The notes beneath the pieces were generated by a model that was not told where the DNA came from, searched no databases, and worked only from the letters and a program-made list of their open reading frames with translations. This document shows positions 1-40,845 of a stretch of 64,000 bases of DNA, in pieces. Location: positions 310,001 to 374,000 of the forward strand of contig OW569370.1 of assembly GCA_937625935.1 (NCBI GenBank), written 5' to 3'. The translations under genes were made by a program, and so were the position numbers. Within the stretch, counting starts at the first letter, position 1. Every line of letters starts with the position of its first letter. The stretch comes from Tetramitus jugosus. Taxonomy: Eukaryota; Heterolobosea; Eutetramitea; Acrasida; Vahlkampfiidae.

Positions 1-1205
1 CAGATTTGACAAAGCTGAAGCTACTAGCTTACACACATGACATAACTCTACCAGAGATCATTGATGACAGAGAAGAGAGTTCCACTATATCCATTCTAGA
101 CTATCACTCTGATTCAGACAACAGTATAATAGAACACGAGTATGATTTTTCTGAATCTGAAGAAAGTTCTGAAGAAATTGAGATGAACGAGAATATTGAA
201 CAAGTAGAAGAGGAAATTGTTCCCGAGGAGAGCAAAGAAGAAGACAAAAACTGTTCAGAAAGGGGAGATTGTGAATCACCAAATTCTTCATTTCAACTGA
301 ATCATATAGAAGTTGGAGAAGAGAAACACGTTAAATTTGAGGAGATGAGTGGCTCCCTCTTCATGCAAGTTGAAGGCAAAGCTGATTTGAAAAACGAGCT
401 AGCAACTCCAATAATAGTAGAGGGTCCTGTAGAGCAGCCGGTTATGGCTACCAAAGAGCAATTCATCAGTTTTTATGACGATGGATTCATGGAATGTGAA
501 AACATCGTGGACGACACGGATTTTGGCACGTTTGGCAGCTTTGATGAGAGTAAGTTTGGAAAGGAAGATGATGAAAATGTTACTGAGGTTCATGATGCCG
601 AATCGTACTTGAATAATTTTAAGAACAAGAATGAAAACGAGGAAACTCATTGCACCCCAAAAGTTGTCAAAAAACGAAAACTTAGCACCATGATATCGAG
701 CTTAATAGGAGACAGATCTAATTTATTACCAAGAACCCAAGCGATACCGAGTCATACAGAAGATTTCAGTTTAACAGAAGGATCAACAGTCGATTCTGTA
801 CTATCTCCTGTGACATTATCGTCCCACATCTCGAAGTGTGAGTTCGAAAGTATGGAGAGATGTCTAATAAGTTTGTTCACTGGCGATATAATGTGTATAA
901 CAAAGAGGGGAGCAAGTAAACCAAGTCGACGGTATGTTTGGGTGGACACTCAAAGGATGCATATCTGTTGGAGTAAAGGATCTTCCAAGAATGTGAAAAA
1001 CATGAAGGAGTTCCCCATCACAGAAATAAGAATGGGAACGTTCCTAGCAAGTGTTTCCATCACTGAAGAACAGAACAACAGATCGTTCACAGTTTGGTCA
1101 ATACAAGGATCGCAACTTCTTTTCTCAGCGAGCTCAGAATCATTAAGAAATGATTGGGTGAATTATATCACTGCTGTACTAGAGATCAAGCATCGAAAGC
1201 ATTAA
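1..1205 (+). CDS. PH-domain protein, C-terminal part (5' end outside window)
   Basis: The reading frame is open from the window edge (codons in phase from base 3) to a TAA at 1203-1205, about 400 residues, so this is the 3' part of a longer gene. The first two thirds are acidic, Glu/Asp/Ser-rich and probably disordered. The last ~110 residues read like a pleckstrin-homology domain: a strand pattern beginning near FTGDIMCITKRG, a central YVWVD / ICWSKG pair, and the C-terminal helix SLRNDWVNYITAVLE with the near-invariant PH tryptophan. PH domains bind phosphoinositides or proteins and recruit their carriers to membranes. Nothing visible gives a catalytic role; that part may lie upstream of the window. 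Confidence 0.75.
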   Translation, partial: DLTKLKLLAYTHDITLPEIIDDREESSTISILDYHSDSDNSIIEHEYDFSESEESSEEIEMNENIEQVEEEIVPEESKEEDKNCSERGDCESPNSSFQLNHIEVGEEKHVKFEEMSGSLFMQVEGKADLKNELATPIIVEGPVEQPVMATKEQFISFYDDGFMECENIVDDTDFGTFGSFDESKFGKEDDENVTEVHDAESYLNNFKNKNENEETHCTPKVVKKRKLSTMISSLIGDRSNLLPRTQAIPSHTEDFSLTEGSTVDSVLSPVTLSSHISKCEFESMERCLISLFTGDIMCITKRGASKPSRRYVWVDTQRMHICWSKGSSKNVKNMKEFPITEIRMGTFLASVSITEEQNNRSFTVWSIQGSQLLFSASSESLRNDWVNYITAVLEIKHRKH

Positions 1206-5444: not shown

Positions 5445-6899
5445 ATGAGCTCTGATAGCAAAAAGGAGCTGGATAAGAAACAACCCCCTCCAACAGAACA
5501 AAAGAAGGAGAACAAACCCTCACCAGTTAGAATGTTCTTCACTAAAGCTCTAACAAGGATAAAATTTGACCCTGATAGCAGAGGTAGATCACTATGGGAC
5601 ATGTTTGTCTTGATCTTTGTCGTGTATAATGTTGTTGTCATTCCACTGAGGATGGGATTTAAGATGCATTCTATAAAACAGTGGGTAGCCACAGATCTAT
5701 TGGCAGACATTGTGTTTTGGGCCGATATCATTTTCAACTTTCGAACGAGCTATTCTGTCAATGGACAAACCATTTACGACTCTAGACTCATGGCCAAACA
5801 TTACTTAAAAACTCAATTTATGTGGGATATGCTCGCGTCTTTTCCACTTGAAATAGTTGGTTATTCTTGGAAGTGGTACCCATGGTGGAGATTACCTCGG
5901 TTAATTCGATTCTTTCGATTTAATCATTACTTTAATGCGGCTGAGAACATTTTCAGTGGCATGCAATTGTTGTTCGAACTTTTAAAAACAGTGATTTATA
6001 CCTTTCTGATTTCCCACTTTTCAGCATGTGGCTATGTGTGGGTCATACTGCATCAACCCGAAGTCAATGACGACTTTCTTGTGGGAGGAGTCAACATTGT
6101 TGGTAGACCATTCTGGCGGCAATATCTTCGTGCATTCTATTGGGGATTCTCTATGTTCTCTGGTTATGCGAATACTCAACCAGTGACCAATCTCGAATAT
6201 GGATTCTCATTAGTCGTGGCCGTAGTCGGTATGGTCGTCTATTCGTACATTATCGGTATGGTTGCTCTACTATTGCAACAATACGATGACAGAGGAGCTG
6301 AGTTTCAAAGGAGAATCGAATCTCTACAAGCGTTTATGGACTACCGACGGTTACCCTCTCAAATGAAGAAGGATATTATCAGATACTACAACTACATTTG
6401 GTATACGAGAAAATCGTTGAATGAAACTCAGATTCTGGAGGATTTGCCTATTCATTTAAGAACTGAAGTCGCCCTATTCTTCAACAAGCAGATTATTGAA
6501 AAGGTTCCCTTCTTTGCCGAGTTAGAACCTCAGTTTATCAACTCGATTGTACTTAAACTGAAACCAAAGGTGGCTCTTCCCCAGTCATTCATCATCAAGA
6601 AGAACGATATTGGACGTGAGATGTTTTTCATCAGCAGAGGTGCTGTCGAGGTTGTATCAGAACCCAATGAACAAGGAGAAAGAATGATCTTTGCAACATT
6701 GAACGAAGGTTCGTTCTTTGGAGAGATTGCCCTCATTAACAATACGAAACGTGGTGCATCCATTCGAGCAAAAGGTTTCTGTGATCTGTTCGTTTTCACA
6801 AAGGCAGACTTTCAAGAAGCACTCAAGACCTTTCCAGAGAGTGTCAAGCAACAGATCATGGATACTGCCAACAAGCGAGACCAATCACAGAAAAAATAA
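5445..6899 (+). CDS. cyclic-nucleotide-binding-domain cation channel (CNG/HCN/EAG superfamily)
   Basis: 484 residues from ATG 5445 (the frame is open upstream, but this is the first ATG). Helices S1-S6 span roughly residues 40-290. The S4-like segment has spaced arginines (RLPRLIRFFRF), the pore helix is AFYWGFSMF, and the filter reads S-GYANTQP with G240-Y241-A242. A C-linker follows (residues ~295-345), then a cyclic-nucleotide-binding domain (~345-470) with the phosphate-binding cassette FFGEIALI...TKRGAS that keeps the Glu and Arg which contact cAMP/cGMP. The GYG potassium signature is GYA here, so strict K+ selectivity is doubtful and a nonselective or Na/Ca-permeable pore is plausible. 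It resides in a membrane, plasma or contractile-vacuole. Its stop lies 25 bp from the convergent sestrin stop. Confidence 0.88.
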   Translation: MSSDSKKELDKKQPPPTEQKKENKPSPVRMFFTKALTRIKFDPDSRGRSLWDMFVLIFVVYNVVVIPLRMGFKMHSIKQWVATDLLADIVFWADIIFNFRTSYSVNGQTIYDSRLMAKHYLKTQFMWDMLASFPLEIVGYSWKWYPWWRLPRLIRFFRFNHYFNAAENIFSGMQLLFELLKTVIYTFLISHFSACGYVWVILHQPEVNDDFLVGGVNIVGRPFWRQYLRAFYWGFSMFSGYANTQPVTNLEYGFSLVVAVVGMVVYSYIIGMVALLLQQYDDRGAEFQRRIESLQAFMDYRRLPSQMKKDIIRYYNYIWYTRKSLNETQILEDLPIHLRTEVALFFNKQIIEKVPFFAELEPQFINSIVLKLKPKVALPQSFIIKKNDIGREMFFISRGAVEVVSEPNEQGERMIFATLNEGSFFGEIALINNTKRGASIRAKGFCDLFVFTKADFQEALKTFPESVKQQIMDTANKRDQSQKK

Positions 6900-27639: not shown

Positions 27640-28825
27640 TTTAGCATTGCTAGTCAATTGAATAGCACTGCACTTGCTTCAGATGAAATTGTAGACATGT
27701 TGAAGCGATTGTTGTTGGTGCCACTCGAGTCATACAACAATGTGCTAACAGTTTTGAAGTTGGAGAAGTATGGTGATATTATTCATTCTCTTGGATATGA
27801 ACAGAGAAAGTTTATTGCACTGAGCATTGTGAGATGCGCACTTGACAATGGACACAAGATTTCAACATTTGAACAAGTGAACAAACTGTTTGATTTGATT
27901 CGTCCACTGTTGAAGGATGAGGAAGACCAGACAACATTCTCACCTTCTGACGACTCACCAATAGCTGCAACATTGCTCGAAGATTTCGAAGAAGAACTTG
28001 ATTGCCAGATTGGTTCATTTGTTTGATAATAGCGATACTGATCAATTGTTTAAAGTTTTGGCCGCAGCCAGAAAGCACTTTGGTCAGGGTGGTGTCAAGA
28101 GAATTCAATACACATTGGTACCGCTTGTATTCTCCTACTTGAAACTTGCTCAGAGAATCTACAATGCACAGGAGGAGGAAAAGGTGATCAATGTAGACAA
28201 GGTGTTCAAGTATGTACTCGAAATTTTGCAGGTTTATGCCAACCACAGACCAAGTGTCGCCTTGACACTCTATCTCCAAAGTGCTCAATGTGCTGATCAA
28301 TGCGCCTCTGATCAAATCGTGTACGAATTCCTGACACAGGCATTCATGATCTATGAAGAGGAAGACAGCAAGATTCAATTGAATTATTTGACCTTGATCA
28401 TCAACACGCTGCAAAATATGAAGAATATGACTCGCGAAAACTATGACACATTGTCCACAAAGACCTGCCAATACTCATCCAAGCTATTGAGGAAGCCTGA
28501 TCAGTGCAGAGCTGCCTTCACTTGCTCTCATCTGTTCTGGCCGTTCGTGAATAACGAAGAGCTTCAGAACAGTTCAAAGGCACTTGAATGCTTGCAATGG
28601 TCGTTGAAGATTGTCAAGGCATGCATGCCTGCACAACAAATTCCATTGTTTGTTGACATTTTGAACGTGTACGCTTATCACTTTGACAAGGACAATGACA
28701 AGGTGACTGCCGAGTACATTAACGGTCTCATTGATCTAATCGCTGACAATATCTCAAAGATTGAAGAAGAGGAGACTCCTGATGATGTCTTTGCACCAAC
28801 CAATGCCGAGATTGCTATTTACTAA
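27640..28825 (+). pseudogene. VPS35: 5'-truncated, frameshifted VPS35 (retromer) fragment
   Basis: The C-terminal half of the retromer core subunit VPS35 is encoded in two frames. Frame one (from a TGA at 27637-27639 to ~27996) gives LVPLESYNNVLTVLKLEKYG and ends in DFEEE. The match continues one base later (from 27998) as LIARLVHLFDNSD, ARKHFGQGGVKRIQYTLVPLVF, LQVYANHRPSVALTLYL and LDIL-type helices, to a normal stop at 28823-28825. Skipping base 27997 rejoins the protein, so there is a +1 shift. No N-terminal half (human VPS35 is ~800 residues; ~390 aligned here) exists upstream, where the AAMP and C2HC genes lie. It is best read as a pseudogene or broken duplicate beside the Fanzor locus; an assembly error or programmed frameshift is less likely. 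Confidence 0.75.
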
Positions 28826-29284
28826 CCAAATCTAGAGAATAAACTTCTTCACTCAACAAGAGGAACAGACTCGCTCTCTCAGCACTCAACAACTTGCCAA
28901 CACCAGAGATCAAATGCTGCAAATAGACACCTCTTGTCGACTCTCCATCTTTTTTGATTGATTTGGTTGTTGTTGTTGTTGTTGATGTTCGTTGTGCGAC
29001 TTGTGTTTTTCGTTGTTGTTGTCGTGTCAGAGAGAAAGTTTTTCGTTGGTTCAAGATTGGATAGATAGGTGGATATATTATAAAAAAATACAATAAATGT
29101 TGTATCAGTTTCCTCTAAGCTGCGGAATTGGTGCAGTTGTAACAATTTCCGTTGAGACTGTCTTTACAACGGCAACGGCCATCTACCTCGGTTTAAAAAG
29201 CGCTGTCTTTTTCGCTGTTTGATTCAACTCACACAACAAATACAACACACAACAAATACACCACACAACAAATACAATAACATT
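28826..29284. other. intergenic region, 459 bp, presumed left flank and promoter of the Fanzor gene
   Basis: No gene seen. A TTG-rich stretch lies at 28965-28985. At 29236-29280, three near-identical copies of CACAACAAATACA lead to the Fanzor ATG. I found no terminal inverted repeat shared with the right flank and could not fix a left element end. Confidence 0.45.
29235..29280 (+). repeat. triple ACAACAAATAC leader repeat
   Basis: Three tandem, slightly diverged 15-16 bp copies sit in the leader directly before ATG 29285. They are similar in type to CAA-rich leaders of host genes in this window. Confidence 0.7.
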
Positions 29285-31105
29285 ATGCCACGAGGCGTGC
29301 CGAAGGACGGCAAGAGAAAGAGAAAGAGAGAGACTGTCAAAAAGAATGAATACTCATCACATTACGTGGTCAAAATCGGTTTGAAATCCTTGTTGTTGCA
29401 TCATCCAACTCTGTTACCAATCATACAAACTCAAGCTCTGGAGATTACAAGGATTGCTCTTAGAATCACTCGATTCATAAATGTGTTCGTGTTGAGATAC
29501 TTGGAGAACGATTGCAACATTCCTCCATTGGATCAAGGATTTATTCAACGGATTGTCTCTGTCTTGTTTGGACCAAAATCAGAAACAAGAGACGGTAATG
29601 TTGCCCTTGCCAATGAATCTGTTAATATGGATGATGTCATAGTCAAACTCAGAAAGCTTTATGAGAATTTTTCCACATCCATCAATTACGTTGCAAAGTC
29701 TCTCAGGGTCAACATCTCCAACATGCTCAAGTTCACGCTTGAACAAAGACTGAGAAAGTATCTGATAGTCAGAATGAGTCAATTGTGTTCGGATCCATCT
29801 ATCCCAAGATCCGAATACAGAAGGGTCGTTGAATACATTATCAGAAGGTTGACATTCAAAACTCCAGTCTATGACTTCATCAAACTGCCTCCAAGGGGGT
29901 TGATTGAAGTCATTCCTGTATTAATTCATGAGATCAAAACACTTGCTGCTGTTGGAACCGATGAAGTTATTGATGAATCTTTTGTGGATAACAACACTAA
30001 CAATATGCTGAAGTTTTACTGGCATGTACAACAATTTCTGACATATCCAAATAGAAGAAAGAAAAATGACATTCGTGAACCGATAGAATTCAAATACAAT
30101 CTGAAGTGTTTGAACACCGGCGAAAAGAAGATTCAGATTGATTCTATCAGAACTGACGGTATTCAAGCCTCTGTTGTTGTCAGACATCAACTCATTGGCA
30201 ATCACAAGAACAATAAGGCAGAGAAATCTAAAGGCGAGAAACAAGCAAAGAAGATGAAGAAAGAAACAACTATTGTTGATCAATATGCAGATTACTTGAT
30301 TGGTATCGATCCTGGTATTGTCACATTGATGAGTTGTGCTGATTCAGATGGTAAAAAGTGGGAGTTCTCCAATAAGGCATACAGACGACTGTCTCATCAT
30401 TCACAGAACGCCAAACGTTTGTTGAAATACAAAGCAAAATGGAACACGAAAACTGGAAAAGATTTAGATGAACTCCATAACTCGATCAAACAAGCCAGTG
30501 TATCGACAAGTGATCTGTTTATCGAACACATTGATTCTGTTTTGAAAGTCGAAGATGACTTGCTTGGTTTTTATTGCACTCCAAAGGTGAAGAGACTGAA
30601 TTGGGACAGCTATATTATGAGAGACAAAACAATTGCTGGAGTAATGAATGATTTTCACAAAAGAGCAAATGGAAGAAAGATGGTCATTGGCATGGGCAAT
30701 GCTGGTTTCAAAAATAGTTACAGAGGACATGCTTCAACGCCCAAGGGCAAACTGTTGAAGAAACTGAATGAACGATTTGAAGTGAAAATGATTGACGAAT
30801 TCATGACCAGCCAAAAATGTTGTGCTTGCCATTCCCATTTGAAGCCAGTCAAGCACAAACGAATGGACAAGAAAGGTGTATCAGCAATCTCTATTGTACG
30901 AGGAGTTAAACAGTGTGCAACCACTAAATGTTTAGTGACTCACAACAGAGGCATCAATGCGGCCAAGAACATGCTCCATCTACTGAGAACAGAAATGGAT
31001 GGACAGTCACGTCCCGATGCCTTCAAGAGGAAGAAAAAGGTCGCAAAAGAATTAATCAAAATGGTGGAACACCTCCAAGGCTCACTCCATCAAGCTGCTA
31101 TGTAA
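29285..31105 (+). CDS. Fanzor (eukaryotic TnpB-like RNA-guided endonuclease family), third RuvC Asp replaced by Gly
   Basis: 606 residues from ATG 29285, one uninterrupted frame. The N-terminus has a likely NLS (GKRKRKRE); residues ~25-330 are the helical recognition part. The RuvC core follows: IGIDPGIVTL with D342; a VIGMGNAGF...YRGHAS block, where TnpB would carry the RuvC-II Glu; and MIDEFMTSQKC with E505, the rearranged glutamate described for Fanzors. A zinc ribbon (C512, C515, C544, C549) ends in HNR-G-INAAKNM. The family has NRD-x-NAA here; G556 (GGC) stands where Asp is expected (GAC/GAT), a one-base change at 30951. Fanzors use a 3' guide RNA to cut DNA and are related to IS605/IS607 accessory proteins. 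No transposase is adjacent. It is either catalytically dead or impaired, or repurposed for RNA-guided binding; the frame itself is intact. Confidence 0.92.
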   Translation: MPRGVPKDGKRKRKRETVKKNEYSSHYVVKIGLKSLLLHHPTLLPIIQTQALEITRIALRITRFINVFVLRYLENDCNIPPLDQGFIQRIVSVLFGPKSETRDGNVALANESVNMDDVIVKLRKLYENFSTSINYVAKSLRVNISNMLKFTLEQRLRKYLIVRMSQLCSDPSIPRSEYRRVVEYIIRRLTFKTPVYDFIKLPPRGLIEVIPVLIHEIKTLAAVGTDEVIDESFVDNNTNNMLKFYWHVQQFLTYPNRRKKNDIREPIEFKYNLKCLNTGEKKIQIDSIRTDGIQASVVVRHQLIGNHKNNKAEKSKGEKQAKKMKKETTIVDQYADYLIGIDPGIVTLMSCADSDGKKWEFSNKAYRRLSHHSQNAKRLLKYKAKWNTKTGKDLDELHNSIKQASVSTSDLFIEHIDSVLKVEDDLLGFYCTPKVKRLNWDSYIMRDKTIAGVMNDFHKRANGRKMVIGMGNAGFKNSYRGHASTPKGKLLKKLNERFEVKMIDEFMTSQKCCACHSHLKPVKHKRMDKKGVSAISIVRGVKQCATTKCLVTHNRGINAAKNMLHLLRTEMDGQSRPDAFKRKKKVAKELIKMVEHLQGSLHQAAM

Positions 31106-31193
31106 ATCCCGATTATGTAGGAGCGTTAAGGTGTCTTATCGGGAAACCATAATGTTTTTATTATGGCTTACAGTAGACCGCCACCTTAATACT
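31106..31193 (+). ncRNA. candidate Fanzor guide-RNA (fRNA/omega-RNA) scaffold, pseudoknot
   Basis: One base after the Fanzor stop, three perfect stems can form. Stem 1: 31107-31113 (TCCCGAT) with 31138-31144. Stem 2: 31126-31133 (TTAAGGTG), inside the stem 1 loop, with 31182-31189 (CACCTTAA) downstream, plus a possible G-U pair 31125/31190. Stem 3: 31147-31153 (CCATAAT) with 31160-31166, loop of six. Stems 1 and 2 interlock as an H-type pseudoknot enclosing hairpin 3. Position (3' of the nuclease ORF) and pseudoknotted form are what is known for TnpB omega-RNAs and Fanzor fRNAs. In that model the guide starts just 3' of ~31190. Confidence 0.6.
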
Positions 31194-34100
31194 TTGTAAA
31201 ACCAGGATAGAATGACATTCCTGCTTTCCATTCAGCAATTAGAGCTGGCAACACTTCAGGTTCTCTCATTTCGAATGACTCCTTCTCAGTTTCAGAGAGA
31301 CAGTTTTCTGGTACTGAAGTACTCGTGGCGTTATCCATAGCTCCATGTCTCTGTGATAGATACTGAATGATCATTCTTCGACAATTTTGGCTTGACAGCA
31401 GCAGATAGTTCTCAAAGAAGTGCAATAGATCACTCTTCTTCAATGTGGCCAATGCTTCTAACTTTCGCTCGGCTCTATCAAAGAGATATTGTCTTGCCAT
31501 AACTTCTCTCCAGAATCTAACTGCTTCATCCTTCAAATGCTTATCCTTTTCTTCAATCGTAGCTCTCAAACCACTGATATGGGTGCTAATTTCCTCATCG
31601 CTTGTTTGCTCCAAAACGTCATAAAATTGTTGCATGAAGAGATCAATTCTACCCTGAATGAACTGTGGTGTCTTTGTATCAGATTGGATGATAAAAGAAA
31701 GGGAGTTAATGTTATTATCTCGTCTGGCTCTTGAAAACACTAGATAACCGAGTTGTTCCACAGTTCTCAACTGTGAGTAGAATGGAGTGGAGATAATTTG
31801 AGCCAAAAGATCCAAAATAACATCCTGTTGAATGTTTCTCAATCCAATTTGATAAATAACCTCGATAGCAGAGTTCTCGTTCTGGTTTGGAACTGGTTTT
31901 TGAACAAGATAATCCTTTCCTTCCTCAAGCTTAACAATTCGTTCCATGGGTATTTGAGATGGCAATGGTTCTCTGTGCTTGAATTTACGATTGTTACGCT
32001 CTCCAAATAAGATATCTTCGGTTTTATCAGCCAAATTGAGTGCTTCAGCTTCGTTCATATTTCCAATCATTAAAAACTCAGCTTTCAAACACAATAAATA
32101 TTGAGGCACAAAATCGCTCAGCATTTCGAACGTGATATCACCAATGACATGTGCATATTGATCGTAAGTCCACTTTGATAAGTATGTACTTTCAAAACTT
32201 GTGATCAATACGTGCTCATATGGTTGATTTTGAGCCATGTTATTATATTGTTCAGTCAAATCATTCTTGAGCACTTCGAATCTGCTGCGCTCAAAGCTAT
32301 GATCAGCAAACTTTTCAAACACAATGTGATTGAGCTCAACAATTCTGTCATTGTAGCCACTCAAATAAATAGTGAATCCTGTTACGCTGGACTGAATATC
32401 ATAGTAGACACCGGCCATCTCTGCTTCATATGCAATTTCATTCAACTGATCGGCAACTAACATTGACAACAACTTGCTCAAAACTACAACTCTTGGTGAG
32501 GTATATGACTCAGGAATGATCAAGTTGTAAAAGATGTTAACCTTTGGTTGCTTGAAGACATAATCTTGCTTAAACCAAAGTTTCACTTTGCCATTGTCTC
32601 TGAGTAGCGAAGGGAAAGGGTTTCGCTCTTCAACTTGCTTGATTGCAAAACTTTGCGGAATGAATGGATTTGGACGTACAAGCTTCACTGCAGCAGGTTC
32701 TCCAACATGTTCTCCCTTTGCCCAGTTTGTAATTAGTTCAGCTTCAATATCAGATTTTGAATATTTGATCTTGTACCACTTTTCTTCCTCTGTTCCTTCT
32801 TCTTCGTGTCCTTGACTGGCAAAGTATATGTTCATATTTGAAGGAACTATATAATTTAGATAATCATTGAGAACATCTGGAGAGTAATCAAATGAAAGGA
32901 AGCTGGCACTCATAACCTTATCGGCTGGATACTTTTGCATATTGCCTGCCAATCTACTGATGTAATCTGGATCAGATCGCTTGTCCATGTATTGGAATTG
33001 AGCAAGAGACAAGTTGGCTGTCTCATCGAAAATGTGTTTCTGTGGTCCTGCTTCTCTCAACAACTTTAGGTATTCAAACACTGAAGAAACAACCTTTTTC
33101 CACTGCTTTTCACCTTCGCTGGTCATTCTCATGCTGATCATAAAGAGTTGATATCCATTAAATTGGTGGGCAACACCGGCAGCGAACGAATAGAGGAGAC
33201 CCAGACCCTTCAAATAAGAAAATAGTGATCCTTCTCCTTCGTGTCCAAGATAATGGGAATAATAACGATCTGGTTTGATCATCCAATTCACTGTTGTATC
33301 ATCGATACGAATTGGAAATATAAGTGTCATCTCCTTCGTGTCCTTGATTGGTACATACTTGTAAAACTTGGTCAGTTCACTCGGAGTGAACACCTTCTGT
33401 TCCACATACTCCAAACTCGGAAGTGGAACATTCATGTTTTTGACTTGCGAGAAGGATTCACTGACCCAGGAAACAAGTGTCTCAATGGAATGATTGGACG
33501 ATATGACCAATCGCATCAAATTAGCCGAATAATACTTGGAATGAAACTTGATCAACTCATCTCGAATGTTCAACGAATTTTCAGTTGGAATCCGATCCAG
33601 AGTCTCCAAATTACCAGTACCAAACTTGTGGAACGGATGAGATGAATTGCACGATGTTTTCACGAGTTGAAACCTTCGCCACATGTCCTGTGGAATATTC
33701 TTTGAGTGTTCACTCTCAATCGCCATCATTTCTCTTGCCGTAGCATCCTGAGTGAACAATGGAGCAATAAAGAATTGTGCAAATCGATCCAGTCCCTCTT
33801 TAAATGCATCATTGGCCACATTGAAGTGATAATTGGTGGACTCCATATCCGTAAATGCATTTGTGTCTCCACCATTCATCTTTACACTAAAACAAACAAC
33901 AAACCATGTCAATTACAAAAAAATCAACAAATCATGATTACAAAAAACACCACAAAACTTGTTTCTTACAATTTTTGATAAGATCCTTCTTCAGGATACT
34001 TTTCTGTGCCTAAAAACAACATGTGTTCACAAAAATGAGCCAAACCAGCGATACCCTCAGGATCATTCAAATGACCCACATTGATGTCCATTGCTGCAGT

Positions 34101-40746: not shown

Positions 40747-40845
40747 GTACACTACTTGGCGACTACAACAAATTGCTAACAACAAAAAATTGTTTTTGTG
40801 ACGATGTTGTTTTTTTTTCTGATTCCTTCAAAACAAAGAAAAAAA
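40747..40845. promoter_or_regulatory. 99-bp divergent intergenic region between BRCT and PIG-V genes
   Basis: Two divergent start codons are only 99 bp apart, so promoters and leaders of both genes must fit here or overlap coding sequence. It contains a perfect inverted repeat ACAAAAA-ATTG-TTTTTGT at 40782-40799. Confidence 0.5.

Follow-up and report, generated by a model that had tools for sequence, protein, structure and literature searches.

A Fanzor1 transposon ends, on its right side, within the stretch of Tetramitus jugosus DNA considered here, which comprises 64,000 nucleotides (assembly GCA_937625935.1, contig OW569370.1, forward-strand positions 310,001 to 374,000), is called the window, and is numbered from its first base. 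The terminal repeats of this transposon start with TTAA, and the subject of this work is the possibility that its right end also serves as the gene for a Fanzor guide-RNA scaffold, for which the original prediction, made from the bare sequence, had proposed a pseudoknot directly after the Fanzor stop codon. The locus comprises the following features, in which SL1 and SL2 denote two predicted stem-loops and TAM denotes the target-adjacent motif.

27642..28825, + strand: VPS35 gene fragment, borne by type-B and hybrid copies on the upstream side of Fanzor
29105..31189, + strand: element core common to type-A copies, delimited by blastn of the window copy against its paralogues and by the boundaries of copies L015 and L017-L020
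29285..31105, + strand: Fanzor1 open reading frame (ORF) of 606 aa, supported by PF07282, a SpuFz1 match, a motif survey and a paralogue alignment
31094..31124, + strand: predicted SL1, with 31094-31096/31122-31124 and 31098-31105/31113-31120 paired, loop AUCCCGA and the stop codon within
31103-31105, + strand: stop codon of the Fanzor ORF
31107..31144, + strand: possible pseudoknot of UCCCGA (31107-31112) with UCGGGA (31139-31144), that is, stem 1 of the original prediction minus one pair
31126..31189, + strand: predicted SL2, with basal stem 31126-31133/31182-31189 and apical hairpin 31147-31153/31160-31166
31173..31189, - strand: right terminal inverted repeat TTAAGGTGGCGGTCTAC (read on the - strand, TTAA included), identical to the sequence at the left end of intact copies
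31186..31189, no strand: TTAA, a probable target-site duplication and predicted TAM; similarity ends after it and the flanks differ
31190..31211, + strand: predicted guide, equal to the right flank and running antisense to the insulysin gene at its 3' end; its length is set by analogy with the repair scars proposed below
31186..33912, - strand: host insulysin (M16 peptidase) gene, with the element at its stop codon

The window ORF matches PF07282 (TNB zinc-finger domain) with an E value of 5.9e-08 and the SpuFz1 structure PDB 8gkh with 7.6e-13, and by these matches it is Fanzor1-like. On the right side, the resemblance between paralogues ends at 31189, give or take a few bases attributable to chance, which places the boundary between scaffold and guide at 31189 | 31190. 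The same position follows from the composition of the predicted scaffold, since the 3' arm of its stem 2 is made of the terminal repeat plus TTAA, so that the first host base, and with it the start of the guide, is 31190. TTAA followed by 18 nt has its own site as the sole match in the genome within 3 mismatches. The four bases at 31186-31189 also contain, on the opposite strand, the stop codon of the insulysin gene according to the ORF table; a 99% identical insulysin from another source (P0007) terminates at the same residues, and the best named match of the window insulysin, from Acrasis kona, is 42% identical. At 31186-31210 the guide as predicted runs in antisense to the gene's 3' end, and the transcript could also pair with the insulysin mRNA.

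In the reading that we put forward, and that we hold to be probable, the right end of the transposon encodes the scaffold of the Fanzor1 guide RNA, and cutting by Fanzor followed by recopying has left truncated copies in the genome. The scaffold would consist of SL1, one nucleotide and SL2, where SL1 would begin inside the last Fanzor codons and the 3' strand of SL2 would be the terminal repeat plus TTAA; transcription running beyond the element end would append about 20 nt of host flank as the guide. An empty site would carry the guide-matching flank directly 3' of a single TTAA, and this placement would let TTAA act as the TAM. The ribonucleoprotein (RNP) of the family would cut such an empty site about 20 nt into the flank, after which repair from an element-bearing copy, for instance on the chromatid, would restore the element. 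If copying from the right side were interrupted and the end joined, a left-truncated element preceded by TTAA and the leading guide bases would result, with the expected arrangement L-TTAA-guide(1..n)-truncated element-TTAA-guide-R; the L-TTAA-guide junction is expected solely in an empty site. Transcription, RNP formation, cleavage, the route of repair and the single TTAA of empty sites are what we infer from the arrangement of the DNA.

The three perfect stems of 7, 8 and 7 bp on which the original prediction was built lie where it placed them. Stem 1 joins TCCCGAT (31107-31113) to ATCGGGA (31138-31144), stem 2 joins TTAAGGTG (31126-31133) to CACCTTAA (31182-31189), and the hairpin stem joins CCATAAT (31147-31153) to ATTATGG (31160-31166). 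Its judgement that chance is an unlikely origin was borne out as well: when 31106-31189 was shuffled with dinucleotides preserved, the full configuration (interlocked 7+8 bp plus the third 7-bp stem) arose in 0 of 10,000 shuffles, and the interlocked 7+8 bp pair alone in 4 of a separate 10,000. On the + strand of the window, scanned in segments of 85 nt with a step of 5, the full configuration was found at two places, here and at 40761-40776 (segment starts). Part of this non-randomness arises because the 8-bp stem 2 pairs the internal TTAAGGTG with the terminal repeat of the transposon. Folded alone as a nested structure, 31106-31189 shows no unusual stability (z -1.09).

When the preceding 18 nt are included, the predicted fold consists of SL1, in which GCU and CUAUGUAA pair with UUAUGUAG and AGC, a single unpaired G, and SL2, with a z score of -2.11, and a stretch of 130 nt folds to the same layout. 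The original prediction was right that the ORF is a Fanzor, and the region is the right end of the element, with similarity stopping at 31189; the prediction had the scaffold start after the stop codon, whereas SL1 of the best fold begins at 31094 in the last codons and holds the stop codon in its 5' arm. Stem 2 is kept as the basal stem of SL2, linking the internal TTAAGGTG to the terminal repeat and TTAA. The order SL1 then SL2, with a TTAAGG:CCTTAA base, was obtained in all five sequences folded, namely the window copy, the type-A copy L015 (z -2.85), the type-B copy L016 with its different right-end sequence (z -3.82), the distant relative L043 (z -4.03), whose protein is 44% identical over residues 293-593 and 35% over 10-258, and the decayed L042, where two spacer bases separate the stem-loops. 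Among these, only L042 and L043 have an SL1 sequence clearly unlike that of the window. When L043 was lengthened upstream, SL2 was formed at every length folded and SL1 at two of three lengths, including 100 nt (z -3.54). On these predicted folds SL2 and the hairpin stand, SL1 is likely to belong to the predicted guide RNA, and a 6-bp loop pseudoknot alongside SL1 is possible. According to the accessible portions of published work, the first stem-loop of Fanzor1 guide RNAs comprises seven pairs and is followed by at least one more ahead of the guide (PMC11423790), and these RNAs are predicted to contain the terminal repeat and the target duplication with no pseudoknot (PMC10711439); no pseudoknot appears either in the SpuFz1 guide RNA as described in the portions available (PMC10432273). 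An Rfam scan of 29000-31600 returned just two small nucleolar RNA matches, far below threshold.

The genome, with 26.3 Mb in 56 contigs, holds 92 matches to the window Fanzor protein and 36 DNA matches to the Fanzor 3' end; 40 loci were extracted, and a few short ones were added later. Copies with both ends carry two kinds of terminal repeat, both starting with TTAA, so that type-A elements run from TTAAGGTGGCGGTCTAC to GTAGACCGCCACCTTAA and type-B elements from TTAAGGATGTAGTTCG to CGAACTACATCCTTAA, with differing flanks directly after TTAA. TTAA stands at both ends in 14 of the 15 two-ended copies listed, the right end of L032 being TTGG; their ends were located by patterns that include TTAA, and similarity searches made without such patterns break off at an identical position. 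The Fanzor ORF of L015, with 642 codons, is the sole ORF above 108 codons in that copy. A search with the type-A end pattern gave 40 matches, 39 of them at 0-1 mismatch (with the pattern reversed as a control, 8 were obtained at up to 2 mismatches), and the ends are unevenly distributed: all 12 left ends are paired with a right end, while 16 right ends are unpaired, or 14 after L037 and L063 are dropped. The unpaired type-A ends are thus 14 right against 0 left, although L013 and L042 may have left ends beyond 2 mismatches. One of the two dropped loci, L063 (C31:454780-455180), is a mini-element some 95 bp long that is bounded by the termini CTAAGGTGGC...GCCACCTTAA and contains no Fanzor sequence. 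A further locus, L064, was discarded as a family copy, since it looks like a chance match in coding sequence.

Truncated copies of this family carry the second line of evidence. Of 16 left-truncated copies, 4 show at the left junction a repeat of TTAA together with 6-22 nt of the copy's own guide; like the element ends and the fold model, these repeats are seen in the sequence itself. In L057, a short right-end fragment, the repeat spans TTAA plus 18-20 nt with 2 differences (the left flank ends TTAAGATGTATGTGACTGTTTG and the guide is TTAAGATGTATGTTACTGTTCG), and within 2 mismatches it occurs genome-wide just at its two places. In L060, whose right end measures about 47 bp, the repeat comprises TTAA and 20-22 nt, with a one-base deletion in the left-hand copy; in L034 it comprises TTAA and 8-11 nt, and in L010 TTAA and 6-9 nt. 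The ranges are set by a microhomology of 1-3 bp that the junction shares with the element in all four. Initially 15 left junctions were scored against their own guide and 38 other guides; L037, whose left end proved to be shortened, was then removed, and the addition of L031 and L042, scored against 35 other guides, brought the set to 16 copies. The left ends of L013 and L025 lie outside this set. In the four copies the score of the own guide is 13-22, a value that none of the other guides reaches; no repeat was found on scoring the left junctions of L031 and L042, nor on scoring L039 at 1778 and at 6068.

These repeats fit a Fanzor cut about 20 nt from TTAA in an empty site, one-sided recopying and end joining. 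In all four the guide part is at most 22 nt long and the two longest agree on about 20, a confinement not expected of random breaks. The cuts of SpuFz1 fall after 16-17 nt on the non-target strand and 20-21 nt on the target strand, and the TAM of GtFz1 is TTAA, according to the portions of two studies at hand (PMC10432273, PMC11423790). A cut just outside the right end would also favour loss of the left end, as in the type-A end bias. We therefore lean, by a modest degree, towards the view that the genome holds natural Fanzor repair scars, which would record in vivo cuts about 20 nt downstream of an empty TTAA, guided by the flank and followed by copy-back from the right side.

Two other origins of the repeats are serious rivals. 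The first holds that a gap left by transposase excision was repaired with no Fanzor cut: template switching let the left end, L-TTAA, acquire a few bases of the right flank before it was joined to an element copied in part. End joining commonly produces templated insertions, and the microhomology at all four junctions is in keeping with such a process. However, annealing at TTAA would simply regenerate the empty site, the right-end bias of type A is left unexplained, and so is the stopping of both longest repeats near 20 nt, though two is a small sample. On these grounds template switching is unlikely to be the source of the repeats.

For the scaffold itself, the structure to be weighed is the one originally proposed, a pseudoknot of stem 1 (7 bp) with stem 2 (8 bp) around the hairpin, after the stop codon and without SL1. 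Its stems are all perfect and rare by chance, and the SL1 of L043 varies with where the sequence is cut. A covariation alignment of 33 paralogues in 23 distinct rows, from which the truncated scaffolds of L013 and L024 were left out, shows 95.0% of stem-1 cells paired, as against 98.0% for SL1, and a single two-sided change, in L042. This change, however, was matched by 42 and 37 of 500 shuffles and lies at CpG on both sides, so that decay could account for it. The seventh pair of stem 1 is unpaired in 6 of the 23 rows and gapped in 1 more, and in L043 no loop match reaches 4 bp. Since stem 1 uses the loop of SL1, the two could coexist only as the 6-bp loop pseudoknot, and a 6-bp loop match was found in 1.8% of shuffles. 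The predicted energy of SL1 taken by itself is -10.7 kcal/mol, which makes it more stable than stem 1 by itself (-8.7); SL1, SL2 and the hairpin together reach -23.1. Stem 2 and the hairpin of the pseudoknot thus stand while its stem 1, which competes with SL1, is unproven, and we consider it doubtful that the scaffold has the form first proposed.

It could also be that the transposon end alone matters, TTAAGGTG and the terminal repeat being transposase sites whose fold has no RNA function. The terminal and subterminal TTAAGG motifs could indeed be protein sites, and the covariation is uninformative; yet SL2 is kept in type B, whose right end is different, and in L043, which differs throughout, at the z scores of -3.82 and -4.03 given above, longer stretches of L043 still reach -3.54 and -2.50, and published Fanzor1 guide RNAs are predicted to contain the terminal repeat and the target duplication, as stated in the accessible part of PMC10711439. 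An absence of any RNA function is accordingly improbable.

The least probable proposal, that the TTAA-plus-guide repeats are target-site duplications of 10-26 bp made by retrocopying of Fanzor transcripts in the manner of long interspersed nuclear elements (LINEs), draws on the fact that LINE-like insertions typically show 5' truncation, variable length and microhomology, a pattern which the four copies match, but it is hard to reconcile with right ends at which no poly(A) or other tail is seen, with 3' ends lying exactly at the transposon terminus and with repeats that start with TTAA in all four, and L010 moreover starts about 43 bp inside the left terminus, though a transcript from there is possible. 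It is further opposed by the SpuFz1 guide RNAs, which extend 14-15 nt beyond that end according to the available portion of PMC10432273.

Several observations weigh against the combined reading of a scaffold-encoding right end and Fanzor-made truncations. The fold of L042 is no more stable than its own shuffles (z -0.01), and in L043 SL1 gives way to another fold at 120 nt (30 added upstream bases, z -2.50), with SL2 kept. SL1 is near-identical in the window, L015 and L016, so these three are not independent, and covariation is uninformative because the paralogues vary too little. Twelve of the 16 left-truncated copies, that of the window included, have no convincing repeat, their own guide being unremarkable; L023 and L033 carry TTAA plus 1 nt and then filler, and L025 was rejected as a fifth scar because its 13-nt match is internal element sequence, also present in L059, and not a junction. 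Type B shows no end bias, with 2 left-only and 3 right-only ends (0-1 mismatch; control 19 at up to 2). The window protein lacks the third catalytic Asp, although the family keeps the triad. In addition, no transposase could be linked to the Fanzor termini: the genome has 12 matches to PF13843 (piggyBac-type transposase), for example on C18, C30 and C34, some in long open frames, and TTAAGG/CCTTAA was found in 0 of the 8 loci cut out from them. An attempt to connect the termini of the Fanzor elements with these genes failed, as none was found beside them, and a search for the genes' own termini found none.

The copy in the window is itself probably an inactive member of the family. The RuvC triad D-E-D (or N as the third residue) is incomplete, D342 and E505 being kept and the third residue being G556, while the third Asp is kept in 25 of the 26 loci that show the motif among 42 searched. 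The protein also lacks 35 aa that are present in paralogue L010 in the alignment, and SL2 lacks 5 nt that the other 32 rows hold in full, except for one base in L042. Position 27642 is the left junction of this copy, and a left terminal repeat sought there was not found; by comparison with paralogues, type-A left ends begin about 500 bp further upstream than the start of the core at 29105. With G556, the missing residues and the missing left end pointing to a dead element, the guide-RNA end is best understood as a property of the family, observed here in a copy that is probably dead. Protein relatives number 6, all from metagenome sources; a search of viral contigs confirmed no relative.

Other copies add some observations on the history of the family. 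VPS35 (PF03635) has 30 genomic matches, of which C22:82336-84489 is the fullest and 27 are next to extracted Fanzor copies; type-B and hybrid elements seem to have picked up part of this host gene and multiplied it. In L029, L030 and L031 the Fanzor is about 54-70% identical to that of the window and the right end 93-96% identical, and the scaffold or the protein seems to have been swapped by recombination. The guide of L025 (115-127) starts TTAAGGACATATC, a sequence that is present inside the same element too, and a near-identical stretch occurs in L059, upstream of L014. The short right end L062 (L062:52-74; C11:254080-254330) has TTAA about 18 nt ahead of its left junction; the bases between fit its own guide poorly, and 2 of 38 other guides equal it, so that L062 is possibly a decayed scar.

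If the reading proposed here is true, it would constitute evolutionary evidence that a eukaryotic Fanzor acts as a homing nuclease guided by RNA and maintains its own transposon at its site. The 2023 Fanzor paper, in its accessible portion, describes the biological roles of Fanzors as unknown and merely proposes TnpB-like recopying (PMC10432273). Scars of the kind described would read out the TAM and the cut position directly, without biochemistry, and the role of Fanzor would become a matter of searching any Fanzor-bearing genome for L-TTAA-guide(1..20)-truncated element-TTAA-guide-R. No report of such Fanzor scars was found in the openly accessible literature; subscription papers lay mostly outside this search, so an earlier description is possible.

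In comparison with known systems, the elements share TTAA ends and short terminal inverted repeats with piggyBac-type transposons, a group represented by the 12 PF13843 matches in this genome, but no piggyBac-type gene was found beside the Fanzor termini, 8 of the 12 PF13843 loci having been cut out. NlovFz2 of Naegleria lovaniensis is, in the available accounts, likewise a Fanzor of a related-looking protist and has a confirmed guide RNA, yet it is a Fanzor2 with the TAM CCG, whereas the protein here matches Fanzor1. A closer likeness is offered by the Fanzor1 omega RNAs or right-end element RNAs (reRNAs) of SpuFz1, GtFz1, PpFz1 and the SfAV Fanzor, which, as far as the accessible descriptions go, share the right-end position, the guide in the host flank, a predicted scaffold that takes in the terminal repeat and target duplication, and, if the SL1 predicted here is formed, a first stem-loop followed by at least one more ahead of the guide. 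GtFz1 in particular has, in these descriptions, the TAM TTAA and an RNA that overlaps the end of the coding sequence. The predicted SL1 differs in having 11 pairs in two segments, against the 7 described there, and in containing the stop codon. Here a loop pseudoknot of 6 bp is also possible, and no description of termini with GGTGGCGG or GGATGTAG after TTAA was found in the literature searched. Finally, TnpB and its reRNA in IS200/605 and IS607 elements follow the same logic in the portions of the sources available, in that the guide records the flank, the empty site has TAM and target, and the cut promotes recopying through homologous recombination (PMC11870625, PMC10432273), whereas the element described here is eukaryotic, has terminal inverted repeats and TTAA, and offers as evidence the proposed repair scars in its sequence.
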